NCBI RefSeq assembly: GCF_008087625.1
Contig: NZ_CP042997.1
Coordinates: 1,984,001-2,048,000, forward strand
Direction of reading: 5' to 3'
Source: Aquisphaera giovannonii
Lineage (GTDB): Bacteria; Planctomycetota; Planctomycetia; Isosphaerales; Isosphaeraceae
DNA: 64,000 bases
A model generated the notes under the pieces. It had not been told where the DNA came from. It made no database searches and saw only the letters and a list, made by a program, of their open reading frames with translations. A program made the position numbers and the translations under genes. Below, piece after piece: positions 4,705-9,515 of this stretch (within the stretch, counting starts at the first letter, position 1; each line of letters begins with the position of its first letter).

Positions 4705-5553
4705 ATGTACCAGGCCCGCTTCCATGCGCGATCCGCGGCCGCCCGCCTCCTCGCCTTCACCTTCGCGGCGACCTCCTCGGTCGCGGCCGCGGGGGACGAG
4801 CCGGCCGAGCCGCCCTACGCCCGCCAGCTCCCGGAGGTCCGCTCCGGCCCGCCGGCCTTCGCGTTCAACGGCAAGGACCTGGCCGGCTTCTACACCTACC
4901 TGCACGACCACCGCCATGAGGATCCCGACGGCGTCTTCCGCGTCCGCGACGGCGTCCTCGTGGTCTCGGGCCGGGAGTTCGGCGGGATTTCCACCCGGGA
5001 CGAGTACGCGAACTACCACCTGGTGGTGGAATGGCGGTGGGGCGGCAAGACCTGGCCGCCCCGCGAGGGCAACGCCCGGGATTCGGGCATCCTCCTCCAC
5101 GCCGTCGGGCCCGACGACGCGTCCGGCGGCCACTGGATGGAGTCCGTCGAGTGCCAGATCATCGAGGGGGGCACCGGCGACCTCCTCATGGTCGGAGGCC
5201 GCAGCAAGCCGAGGCTGACGTGCGAGGTCCGCACCGGCCCCGACGGCCAGCCTTACTTCGACAAGGGCTCGAAGCCCGTCACCCGCGACTCCGGCCGCTT
5301 CAACTGGTGGGGCCGAGACCCGGAGTGGAAGGATGTGCTCGGCTTCCGCGGTGCCCGGGACGTCGAGAAGCCCCTCGGCGAGTGGAACCGCCTGGAGGTC
5401 GTCTGCGACGGCTCCACGATCACCAACATCCTCAACGGCCGCGTGGTCAACGTCGGCACCAACTCGAGCCACACCCGCGGCAAGATCACCTTCCAGTCCG
5501 AGGGTGCCGAGATCCACTTTCGCAAGATCGAGATACGGCCGCTTTTGCGGTGA
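4705..5553 (+). CDS. secreted DUF1080 (3-keto-disaccharide hydrolase family) protein
   Basis: A 282-residue protein. The ATG at 4705 follows GGAGG at a good spacing. The first 28 residues form a signal peptide ending in Ala-rich sequence. The DUF1080 fold follows: the opening motif AFNGKDLAGFYTYL near residue 55, WRWGG, the central RDSGILLHAVG and WMESVECQIIEG, and the closing RGKITFQSEGAEIHFRKIEI. DUF1080 is a concanavalin-like beta-sandwich very abundant in planctomycetes, and some members hydrolyse 3-keto-glycosides. Length is normal and the gene looks intact. Its last 93 bases recur about 2.1 kb downstream as an isolated fragment, on the far side of the ATPase/DUF4276 pair. Confidence 0.85.
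   Translation: MYQARFHARSAAARLLAFTFAATSSVAAAGDEPAEPPYARQLPEVRSGPPAFAFNGKDLAGFYTYLHDHRHEDPDGVFRVRDGVLVVSGREFGGISTRDEYANYHLVVEWRWGGKTWPPREGNARDSGILLHAVGPDDASGGHWMESVECQIIEGGTGDLLMVGGRSKPRLTCEVRTGPDGQPYFDKGSKPVTRDSGRFNWWGRDPEWKDVLGFRGARDVEKPLGEWNRLEVVCDGSTITNILNGRVVNVGTNSSHTRGKITFQSEGAEIHFRKIEIRPLLR
5461..5553 (+). repeat. 3' end of the DUF1080 gene, left copy of an imperfect direct repeat
   Basis: These 93 bases, the last 30 codons plus the stop of the DUF1080 gene, match 7572-7664 at 81 of 93 positions by my hand alignment. Both copies end at the same TGA and are in the same orientation. The spacing and the genes between them suggest the boundaries of an inserted segment. Confidence 0.8.
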
Positions 5554-5663: not shown

Positions 5664-6821
5664 GTGACCGCGGTTGATCAGGAGAGCGAGAACGCAAGGC
5701 CGCAGCCCGCCGACCCTCCGGTCCTGCTCGACCACATCACCATCGAGGGATACCGGAGCATCCGCTCACTGGACGCGGTCGAACTGCGGCCCCGCAACGT
5801 CCTGATCGGAGCAAACGGCTCGGGCAAATCGAATTTCCTCTCGGTTTTTAGCTTCCTCAGGTCCATCAGGCAAGGGAAGCTTGCTAGCTACACCGAGAGG
5901 GCGGGCGGCGCCGAAAGGATCCTCCACTTCGGCTCGAAAGTCACCTCGAGCATGAGGTTTGCCCTCACGTTCAAGGGGGGAGTGAACGGGTACCATGCCT
6001 CGCTCTCCCCAACCTCGGAGGACCGATTTTACGTCCATGACGAATTTTGCAGCTTATGGAATAGAAAAACGCACGCATCCCCCCATACGGATCGACTACA
6101 CGGCACGGGCGGCGAAGCGGGTATCAGCGGCCAGCAAGCCCGCGTAGCCCGATGGGTTCAGGGCCACCTCGACAGCTGGCAGAAATATCACTTCCACGAC
6201 ACAGGCGATAGCTCGCCGATGCGAAAGACCGCGTCGGTGAATGACAATCGATCTCTTCGCCCCGATGCGTCGAACCTCGCGGCGTACCTTTACTTCCTGA
6301 AAACCAGCGCTCCTTCGTCGTACCAGTTGATCCGGAAGACGGTACAGAGGGCAGCCCCGTTCTTCGACGACTTCCACCTGGAACCGCTTCGCCTCAATGA
6401 TCAGACGATCCGCCTGGAGTGGATTCACAAATCGAGCGACCAGTATTTCGATGCCGCGTCTCTGTCCGACGGGACCCTCCGGTTCATCTGCCTCAGCACG
6501 CTCTTCGCCCAGCCGATGGAGCATCGACCGTCGATGATCATCGTCGATGAGCCCGAGTTGGGACTGCACCCGTCCGCGATCACGCTGCTGGCCAGCCTGA
6601 TCAAGTCGGCCTCGCGGGAGACTCAGGTCATCGTCTCGACGCAGTCCGCGCTCCTCCTCGACCACTTCGAGCCCGAGGACGTCCTGGTCGCCGACCTGGA
6701 GGACGGTGCAACGACGCTACACCGTCTCGATTCCAACGAACTGGCCGAGTGGCTCGAGGACTATAGCCTGGGCCAGCTCTGGGAGAAGAACCAGTTCGGC
6801 GGGAGGCCCGGCCGTGGCTAG
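5664..6821 (+). CDS. AAA-family (SMC/OLD-like) ATPase of a two-gene cassette
   Basis: A 385-residue ATPase of the AAA_21 / RecF-SMC-like type. It starts at GTG 5664 behind GGGAG. The first strand (ITIEGYRSIRSLD) leads to Walker A at 49-57 (GANGSGKSN). An ABC-type signature (LSDGTLRF) is near 267-274, Walker B near 291-297 (MIIVDEPE) with LGLHPSA after it, and a switch region STQSALLLDHF. This order matches ATPases that partner with nucleases in OLD, Gabija and PARIS-type systems. The DUF4276 gene overlaps its end by 8 bases, so the two are translationally coupled. Stretches such as 6025-6085 are much richer in A and T than neighbouring genes, suggesting acquisition by transfer. The exact family name is unproven. 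Confidence 0.8.
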   Translation: MTAVDQESENARPQPADPPVLLDHITIEGYRSIRSLDAVELRPRNVLIGANGSGKSNFLSVFSFLRSIRQGKLASYTERAGGAERILHFGSKVTSSMRFALTFKGGVNGYHASLSPTSEDRFYVHDEFCSLWNRKTHASPHTDRLHGTGGEAGISGQQARVARWVQGHLDSWQKYHFHDTGDSSPMRKTASVNDNRSLRPDASNLAAYLYFLKTSAPSSYQLIRKTVQRAAPFFDDFHLEPLRLNDQTIRLEWIHKSSDQYFDAASLSDGTLRFICLSTLFAQPMEHRPSMIIVDEPELGLHPSAITLLASLIKSASRETQVIVSTQSALLLDHFEPEDVLVADLEDGATTLHRLDSNELAEWLEDYSLGQLWEKNQFGGRPGRG

Positions 6822-7494
6822 GCTCTTCATCCTCGTCGAGGGGGAGACGGAAGAGACCTTCGTCAACGAGTTGCTGGCCGATCACCTTTGCGCCCGAGGG
6901 TTCCTCAACGTCTCGGCGAAGCTCATGGGCAATGCTCGCCTGAGGTCGAAGAGAGGCGGGGTCAAGTCGTGGCCCTCGGTGCGGACCGAAATCGTCAGGC
7001 ACCTTCGATCCGATCCCGAGGTCTTCGTCAGCACCATGGTCGACTATTACGGCATGCCGTCCGACGGCGACCGAGGATGGCCGGGAAGACGTCGTGCCGC
7101 ATCCCTCCCCTTCGCGGAGAGGGCCATCTCCATCGAGCGAGAGTTGATCGTCAACATCGGGGATGAGATCGGGGACGCGAGGAGGTTCATCCCCTTCGTC
7201 GTGATGCACGAGTTCGAAGCCTATCTCTTCAGCGATTGCGGCCGCATGGCCACGGCCATCGGGCAGGACAACCTCGGGGCTTCCTTCCAGGCGATCCGCG
7301 ATTCCTTCGGGACCCCGGAGGAGATCAACGACTCACCGTCCACTCATCCCTCCAGACGCATCCTGGCCATCTTCCCCGGCTACGAGAAACCTCTGTTCGG
7401 TAACCTCGCGGCGTTGGAGATTGGCCTGGAACGCATCCGCGCGGAATGTCCCCATTTCCGAGCTTGGCTGGAAAGGCTCGAAGGCTTGCTCTGA
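6814..7494 (+). CDS. DUF4276 family protein, partner of the ATPase
   Basis: A 226-residue protein starting at GTG 6814 inside the end of the ATPase gene, with GGGAGG upstream. The N-terminus FILVEGETEETFVNELL (Glu at residue 9) resembles motif 1 of TOPRIM-type domains. MVDYYGMP (Asp 77) and HEFEAYLFSD (132-141) supply further conserved acidic residues, an arrangement I associate with DUF4276. TOPRIM-like partners of AAA ATPases are often nucleases that cut DNA or tRNA, so a nuclease role is a reasonable inference, not a demonstrated one. The coupled start implies a fixed stoichiometry with the ATPase. The gene appears complete. Next downstream comes a fragment of a DUF1080 gene rather than another cassette member. 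Confidence 0.75.
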   Translation: MARLFILVEGETEETFVNELLADHLCARGFLNVSAKLMGNARLRSKRGGVKSWPSVRTEIVRHLRSDPEVFVSTMVDYYGMPSDGDRGWPGRRRAASLPFAERAISIERELIVNIGDEIGDARRFIPFVVMHEFEAYLFSDCGRMATAIGQDNLGASFQAIRDSFGTPEEINDSPSTHPSRRILAIFPGYEKPLFGNLAALEIGLERIRAECPHFRAWLERLEGLL

Positions 7495-7571
7495 ACGCCC
7501 CAAACACCATGGGGCTGTATCATGCCGATTGCGACCATGTGAATCGTGCATGTCCCGACGCCGCGTCCGCG

Positions 7572-7664
7572 AACTCGGCCCACACCCGCGGCAAGATCAC
7601 CTCCCAGTCCGAGGGCGCCGAGATCCAGTTCCGCAAGATCGAGGTTCGGCCCCTGGAGCGGTGA
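7572..7664 (+). pseudogene. isolated 3' fragment of a DUF1080 gene
   Basis: This fragment encodes the last 30 residues of a DUF1080 protein (HTRGKITSQSEGAEIQFRKI, then EVRPLER and stop). No start or upstream domain is attached. Homology to the intact gene begins abruptly at 7572, and the sequence just before it is unrelated. It aligns with 5461-5553 (81 of 93 bases identical), and most differences are silent or conservative. It is either a displaced original gene end left by an insertion or the remnant of a second, tandem DUF1080 gene. Confidence 0.8.
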
Positions 7665-7990
7665 CGGCGTGTCGAACCAGCTCGACCCGCCGGGTCGGGG
7701 AGCCGGCCGGGAGGGGTACCCTGCACGCCGAGGCCGCCGCGCCTATCCTCACCATGAAGGGGGAGTGCTGCCCCGGGGCGACGCGCAAGTCGCCACGCCA
7801 GATTGAGCCGGATCGGGCTGAAGACCGGACCCATGGCGTCGTTCTTAGACATCGCCAGCGACAGCGAGATGCGGACGCCGATCCGTTCGCCTTGTTTCCG
7901 GCCGGCTCGATTTGGTATTAGTCAAGGACCCGCGAAACGTCCCGGGAGCGAAGTCCCGCCTGACATTCACAATCCGATGCCGACCATTGA
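7665..7990. other. intergenic region upstream of the ahcY riboswitch
   Basis: These 326 bases between the DUF1080 fragment and the riboswitch show no credible gene. The frame that continues upstream from ahcY is open here but has no family-like sequence and would run through the riboswitch. The ahcY promoter should lie in its last part, perhaps around the AT-rich patch at 7908-7920, but I cannot assign boxes with confidence. Confidence 0.45.

Positions 7991-8093: not shown

Positions 8094-9515
<1,422 letters not shown>

Follow-up and report, generated by a model that had tools for sequence, protein, structure and literature searches.

ABC-type ATPases and TOPRIM domains are brought together in several described systems. 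In the OLD nucleases both lie in one chain, and according to a review, class 4, or PARIS, consists of OLD proteins divided between two genes (PMC10568477). The two PARIS components are the AriA ATPase and the AriB TOPRIM tRNase, which the ATPase restrains and lets go in response to an anti-restriction trigger. GajA of the Gabija system has the ATPase and TOPRIM functions in common with OLD nucleases and is encoded next to the GajB helicase. HEC-04, or IbfA, also combines an ABC ATPase with a TOPRIM domain, but as one fused protein, and it reportedly protects against T4 and T5 (PMC12111858). Finally, a survey of BREX and related systems describes dyads of OLD-ABC and TOPRIM proteins inside restriction-like operons and calls them backup suicidal effectors (PMC12839542).

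The name HEC stands for Hma embedded candidates (PMC10855318), Hma being a system composed of a helicase, a methylase and an ATPase (PMC8565338). Antiviral activity has been reported for several HECs, HEC-06 among them (PMC12988326). As for HEC-01, the available text of a paper on Desulfovibrio piger lists it among detected systems only (PMC12724379).

A candidate defence pair of the HEC-01 type

We analysed a gene pair in a 64,000-nucleotide stretch of the Aquisphaera giovannonii genome, hereafter the window (Table 1). Both genes match HEC-01 models best and nearly over their full lengths: gene A matches HEC-01A (PDLC04175, E 2.6e-139, residues 22-382) and gene B matches HEC-01B (PDLC04188, E 1.6e-70, residues 1-225). 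The corresponding Pfam families are AAA_21 for A (E 2.2e-30) and DUF4276 for B (E 9.4e-47), with an additional weak match of B to OLD-like_TOPRIM restricted to residues 2-23 (E 0.037). As in HEC-01, the gene for the HEC-01A ATPase adjoins that for HEC-01B, and here the two genes overlap. By these profile matches, the pair is the PADLOC candidate defence system HEC-01, and the window copy is an ordinary member of a family that is catalogued as a candidate, without an explanation. No paper in the collection searched mentions DUF4276. Since HEC-01 is catalogued and the ATPase-TOPRIM theme is known, the window pair adds to a known system.

Table 1. Positions of the gene pair, its motifs, its flanks and the other pairs of the same genome
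Feature	Position	Strand	Basis and remarks
Gene A, SMC/Rad50/OLD-like ABC-type ATPase, HEC-01A	5664..6821	+	385 aa, GTG start; PADLOC PDLC04175, Pfam AAA_21, structure model
Gene B, DUF4276 protein, predicted TOPRIM nuclease, HEC-01B	6814..7494	+	226 aa; start taken at GTG 6814, open frame listed as 6706-7494; PADLOC PDLC04188, Pfam DUF4276, structure model
Walker A motif GANGSGKS (Lys55) of A	5808..5831	+	sequence; G49, G54 and K55 invariant in 45/45 rows
VEGETEE motif of B (Glu9, Glu13)	6835..6855	+	E9, G10, T12 and E13 in 58/58 rows; aligns with the OLD VEGxxE motif
8-base overlap, end of A and start of B	6814..6821	+	read directly off the sequence
Upstream flank, DUF1080 / 3-keto-disaccharide hydrolase gene	4705..5553	+	Pfam PF06439, E 8.3e-31; orthologues in relatives
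Diverged duplicate of the DUF1080 3' end, rest of the gene absent	7572..7664	+	87.1% over 93 bases with 5461-5553, E 2e-26
Downstream flank, S-adenosylhomocysteine hydrolase (SAHH) gene	8094..9515	+	Pfam PF05221, E 2.6e-147
Other ATPase + DUF4276 pairs of the same genome	L111 8096-9873; L112 8652-10528; L113 7018-8784		unrelated places; nearest 41% identical to B

The pair differs from Hma-embedded systems, Gabija, the OLD nucleases, HEC-04 and PARIS in its arrangement or in its best models. Hma-embedded systems lie between the Hma helicase, methylase and ATPase genes, whereas no Hma gene stands beside the window pair; neither does a GajB gene, and the single chain of the OLD nucleases is replaced by two overlapping genes. 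The likeness to the BREX dyads lies in the common ATPase-TOPRIM design. PARIS has the same two-gene design, but the match of A to the AriA model (E 2.3e-30) is far behind that to HEC-01A. Among the PADLOC models, a library that we take to include those of AriB, gene B matches five HEC-01B models only (E up to 1), so that AriA and AriB are not the best models for the pair.

The original prediction, made from the letters alone, held that the genes overlap by 8 bases and that the pair is richer in A and T than its neighbours. The overlap can be read directly, and the base composition agrees: the GC contents of A and B are 0.61 and 0.62, compared with 0.70 for the DUF1080 gene and 0.66 for the SAHH gene, and the corresponding GC3 values are 0.79 and 0.81 versus 0.94 and 0.97. 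The pair of A. insulae has similarly low GC3 values (0.78 and 0.77). As this trait is common to both pairs, it would reflect the make-up of the genes themselves more than a recent arrival at this site.

Predicted folds and conserved residues of the two proteins

The structure model of A has a pLDDT of 93.3. Among its best 50 matches to solved structures, SMC/Rad50 heads reach Z scores of 18.7-21.6, and retron PtuA chains also occur. Protein A is predicted to be an SMC/Rad50-head-like ATPase devoid of a coiled coil. The Walker A motif, with the Lys55 singled out in the original prediction, and the D295-E296 pair are invariant in all 45 aligned rows, and the C-terminus of A is conserved as well.

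The fold search for TOPRIM proposed with the original prediction was performed with a model of B (pLDDT 92.1, with residues 42-47 below 50). Z scores of at least 8 were obtained for four OLD C-terminal regions (6nk8, 8.9; 6njx, 8.4; 6njv, 8.3; 6njw, 8.0), aligned over 163-176 residues with rmsd values of 4.5-4.6, and for PH0156 (2p62, 8.8). Gabija chains follow with Z scores up to 7.7, then the PARIS chains 8ux9 (7.4) and 8v46 (7.0), which in our reading of their lengths are AriB, and retron Eco8 (6.4); the first unrelated protein is at 6.3. A plain Foldseek search yielded two matches under E 0.001, both of them OLD proteins. Z scores of 8-9 are modest, and according to the comparison tool's own note values near 8 can reflect a common arrangement.

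Because of these modest scores we added a sequence-profile test. We aligned the 58-row DUF4276 alignment with 21 OLD rows, a selected set, as the motif was near its expected place in 24 of 30 loci and 21 of these sequences were long enough. In local mode hhalign gave 31.1 for the real alignments, whereas none of 40 column shuffles exceeded 15.9 and the reversed alignment reached 15.3. In global mode the real value was 29.6, the reversed one 2.4, and 39 of the 40 shuffles stayed at or below 4.2, with a single shuffle at 125.9 that we take for an artefact, its cause being unexplained. Given this outlier, we rely on the local mode. The DUF4276 alignment had no hhalign match to a single OLD-like plasmid protein annotated as 'ATP-dependent endonuclease', and solved structures searched by sequence gave nothing useful, whether the query was B, the 58-row profile or either of two distant copies. 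In fold and profile, then, B appears to have the TOPRIM and helical domains of OLD nucleases; a likeness to TOPRIM had been proposed from its VEGETEE start and further conserved acids.

The alignment suggests which residues could be catalytic. In the global hhalign alignment, the VEGxxE motif of the OLD rows pairs with E9 and E13 of B, a T-x-E pattern of theirs with E133/E135, and one of their conserved lysines with K192. The match of B to the OLD TOPRIM domain and helical region includes its Glu, Glu and Lys positions. We read these residues as the counterparts of E400, E404, T506/E508 and K562 of the Burkholderia pseudomallei OLD protein, residues reported to act in metal binding and cleavage (PMC6755086). 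All five residues of B are invariant in the 58 rows, and B is predicted to be a metal-dependent nuclease with E9, E13, E133/E135 and K192 as would-be catalytic residues. The putative metal site differs in one respect. The OLD TOPRIM site comprises a Glu and a DxD motif; B has the invariant Glu9 but lacks one Asp of DxD. Asp77, present in 57 of the 58 rows, is the sole Asp of the region; the position of the other one is taken by M75 or Y79. It corresponds to the second Asp according to hhalign and to the first according to the end of the strand in the model, which leaves one Asp either way.

PH0156, an uncharacterised Pyrococcus horikoshii protein (2p62_A), is as near to the B model as the OLD regions are (Z 8.8 over 168 residues). 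Judging by the model it may be a solved relative of B; the sequence searches did not link the two.

Spread of the pair, restriction-gene neighbours and possible roles

A scan of a genome collection yielded 70 DUF4276 loci from many phyla. In 68 of them B is preceded by an A match, fragments included; locus L049 is cut by a contig end, and L064 has no A match upstream of B. Both genes are intact in 51 loci, among them the window copy and another one from the same genome (L002), and the gap between the stop of A and the start of B ranges from -8 to +21 bases in 50 of them and is 156 bases in the remaining one. The window's own genome has four DUF4276 matches, the other three also following an ATPase-like frame. 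More widely, DUF4276 occurs in 26 of 45 genomes of this bacterial family (E 0.001; one to six matches each, 23 genomes above the curated cut-off), with none in the other 19 or in 14 control genomes. Matches were also found on 12 plasmid records; on the 11 plasmid stretches viewed, the gene preceding DUF4276 bears the annotation AAA family ATPase in nine cases and that of a hypothetical protein, similar in size, in two. The phage records searched contained no match to the pair, and two loci are on viral contigs, one of them a fragment. Of 72 B genes, 14 are not intact and full-length, in some cases owing to contig ends or possible assembly errors. In a tree of the 51 pairs, phylum labels change 24 times (minimum 16), compared with a mean of 33.8 after shuffling and with none of 200 shuffles as low. 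The labels are thus clustered yet mixed, which suggests from the sequences that the pair has spread between phyla over longer times.

The survey of neighbours that had been proposed to check the prediction showed that some homologous pairs are embedded in restriction operons or adjoin them. Seven of the 70 loci (L005, L008, L011, L014, L052, L067 and L068) have type I restriction genes as neighbours of the pair. The order HsdM-HsdS-A-B-HsdR is complete in L008 and is also found in L068, with other frames separating HsdS from A; in the remaining five, part of the order is missing, in several owing to contig ends. In addition, a type ISP enzyme is encoded beside the pair in L007 and a DNA methylase in L048. 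Four of the 11 plasmid stretches have methylase/helicase operons around the pair: two near-identical Aeromonas media plasmids (WYL, SNF2, A, B, methylase), an Ideonella plasmid (helicase, methylase, A, B, Mrr) and an A. veronii plasmid (methylase, A, B, helicase). In the other 61 genome loci, no adjoining restriction gene was recognised with 16 query proteins and family scans of some neighbours, a non-exhaustive set, and several neighbours are ordinary metabolic genes.

We also compared near and far genes with the PADLOC models. Of 127 near neighbours, three were dropped for a length limit, and five of the remaining 124 match type I specificity models (among the best 25 of 130 families). The far set, 127 genes drawn at random from 146, has four matches to mad3, two to DndA/SspA and one to retron reverse-transcriptase models, and no specificity model among the best 25 of 50 families. 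The difference between the two sets is small. In a Poribacteria contig, a gene for an AAA_15-type ATPase follows the pair (L020:8809-10338).

The reading that we consider probable is a split OLD-type defence module, with A as the sensor ATPase and B as the TOPRIM nuclease, and probably abortive. Its basis is the co-occurrence of the two genes, their predicted folds, the conserved would-be catalytic residues and the restriction context of some relatives. Protein A would pair up around ATP and serve as sensor and clamp, restraining B. On sensing infection, for instance through a phage anti-restriction protein or the state of foreign DNA, A would switch on B, which would cut nucleic acid, DNA or tRNA, and stop the infection and probably the cell as well. 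In this scheme we infer complex formation, trigger, substrate and cell death. The original prediction of an ATPase-TOPRIM pair of the defence type agrees with the predicted folds and profiles, and given the PADLOC listing and the restriction operons around some homologues, a defence role is likely. If true, it would widen the ATPase-plus-TOPRIM theme and give a testable function to DUF4276, which databases still label a domain of unknown function and which many genomes of this bacterial family contain.

Two special cases of this module can be distinguished, each of them possible without being the expected outcome. In the first, the pair would guard restriction enzymes in the manner of PARIS or PrrC: a phage anti-restriction protein would disable the enzymes, and B would then cleave tRNA or another RNA. 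The place of the pair in L008 and L068 is the slot of DarTG2 between hsdS and hsdR in EPEC (PMC12255303), PrrC is described as being kept silent by the type I enzyme linked to it and set off by an anti-restriction factor of the phage (PMC2610378), and AriB as a TOPRIM two-metal tRNase (PMC12409363). However, most of the loci and the window itself have no recognised restriction gene beside the pair, and the likeness of B to OLD DNases is no smaller than that to the PARIS chains. In the second case, A would recognise unusual or foreign DNA and B would degrade or nick it, as in OLD or Gabija. The best fold matches of B are the C-terminal regions of OLD proteins, which are reported to be DNases (PMC6755086), and A resembles Rad50/SMC heads. 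Nevertheless, fold similarity does not fix the substrate, and B has one DxD Asp only.

A broader form of the guard idea is more doubtful still. Across their wide distribution, DUF4276 pairs might play the part of PrrC with a TOPRIM protein: as movable guards they would settle between hsdS and hsdR or between methylase and helicase genes, and once phage anti-restriction proteins disable the host enzyme, a one-Asp TOPRIM nuclease would be freed and stop translation or replication. Free-standing copies such as that of the window would guard restriction enzymes encoded elsewhere. The guard idea can be tested directly thanks to the slot that the pair occupies in some restriction operons; this slot and the TOPRIM assignment of DUF4276, with its single DxD Asp, deserve to be followed up.

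The site in the window and in related genomes

According to the original prediction, the pair is flanked on either side by a copy of a host gene end, as expected of a mobile defence cassette. The second copy of the DUF1080 end is indeed present downstream of B, its similarity to the first stopping upstream. These two ends are the sole matches in the window's genome under E 1e-3, and the second is about equally distant from the first and from the A. insulae end (78 and 76 of 90 positions). Nevertheless, the mobile cassette itself is weakly supported. The regions of 18 relatives, including A. insulae, contain no second DUF1080 end at E 1e-4 (three of them have less than 3.2 kb after the gene), and no recombinase frame lies between the two repeats in the window.

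The gene orders in the genus point instead to one neighbourhood that was kept while its far flank was rearranged. In A. insulae (G002, locus L003), the DUF1080 gene, another gene, the pair and GGT follow in a row. In a further genome (G001, locus L114), the pair faces GGT, the DUF1080 side being lost at a contig end. The window's genome has kept the DUF1080 side, and its GGT gene is at C1:1651052, about 340 kb off. Thus, one neighbourhood of the pair seems to have been kept across three genomes of the genus. L126 and L134 have the DUF1080 gene facing GGT and no match to A or B. The far flank in the window is a rearrangement junction: the sequence resembles the SAHH region of G002 only from 7984 onwards, and the junction between B and the SAHH gene (7495-7983) contains the second DUF1080 end. 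We considered one simple inversion, but the genome's own GGT region does not match the SAHH region of G002, and we therefore describe the flank only as rearranged.

The constancy of this neighbourhood, together with the matches on plasmids, would also suit a toxin-antitoxin or DNA-maintenance pair that is retained by chromosomes and plasmids but plays no part against viruses. We regard this as unlikely, as the pair is repeatedly placed inside or beside restriction operons and DUF4276 is distributed patchily in the family, a pattern usual for defence. That the pair serves sugar or SAM metabolism with its direct neighbours, the DUF1080 and SAHH genes, both metabolic, is scarcely credible and already disfavoured, since these genes do not travel with it (GGT, not SAHH, follows the pair in A. 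insulae) and the DUF1080-orthologue regions of 17 of the 18 relatives contain no match to A or B.

Two frames next to the pair in the related genomes may be mentioned. The frame between the DUF1080 gene and the pair of A. insulae (L003:5253-6740) codes for 495 residues that look like a membrane protein to the eye; it has no Pfam match at E 1e-10. In G001, a frame just upstream of the pair (L114:11560-12702) reads like an IS630-type transposase. Within the window, three of 40 other proteins match defence models (PD-T4-6, mad6, C3a189 and MkoA, among the best 25 of 32 families), and we take them for ordinary serine/threonine kinases.
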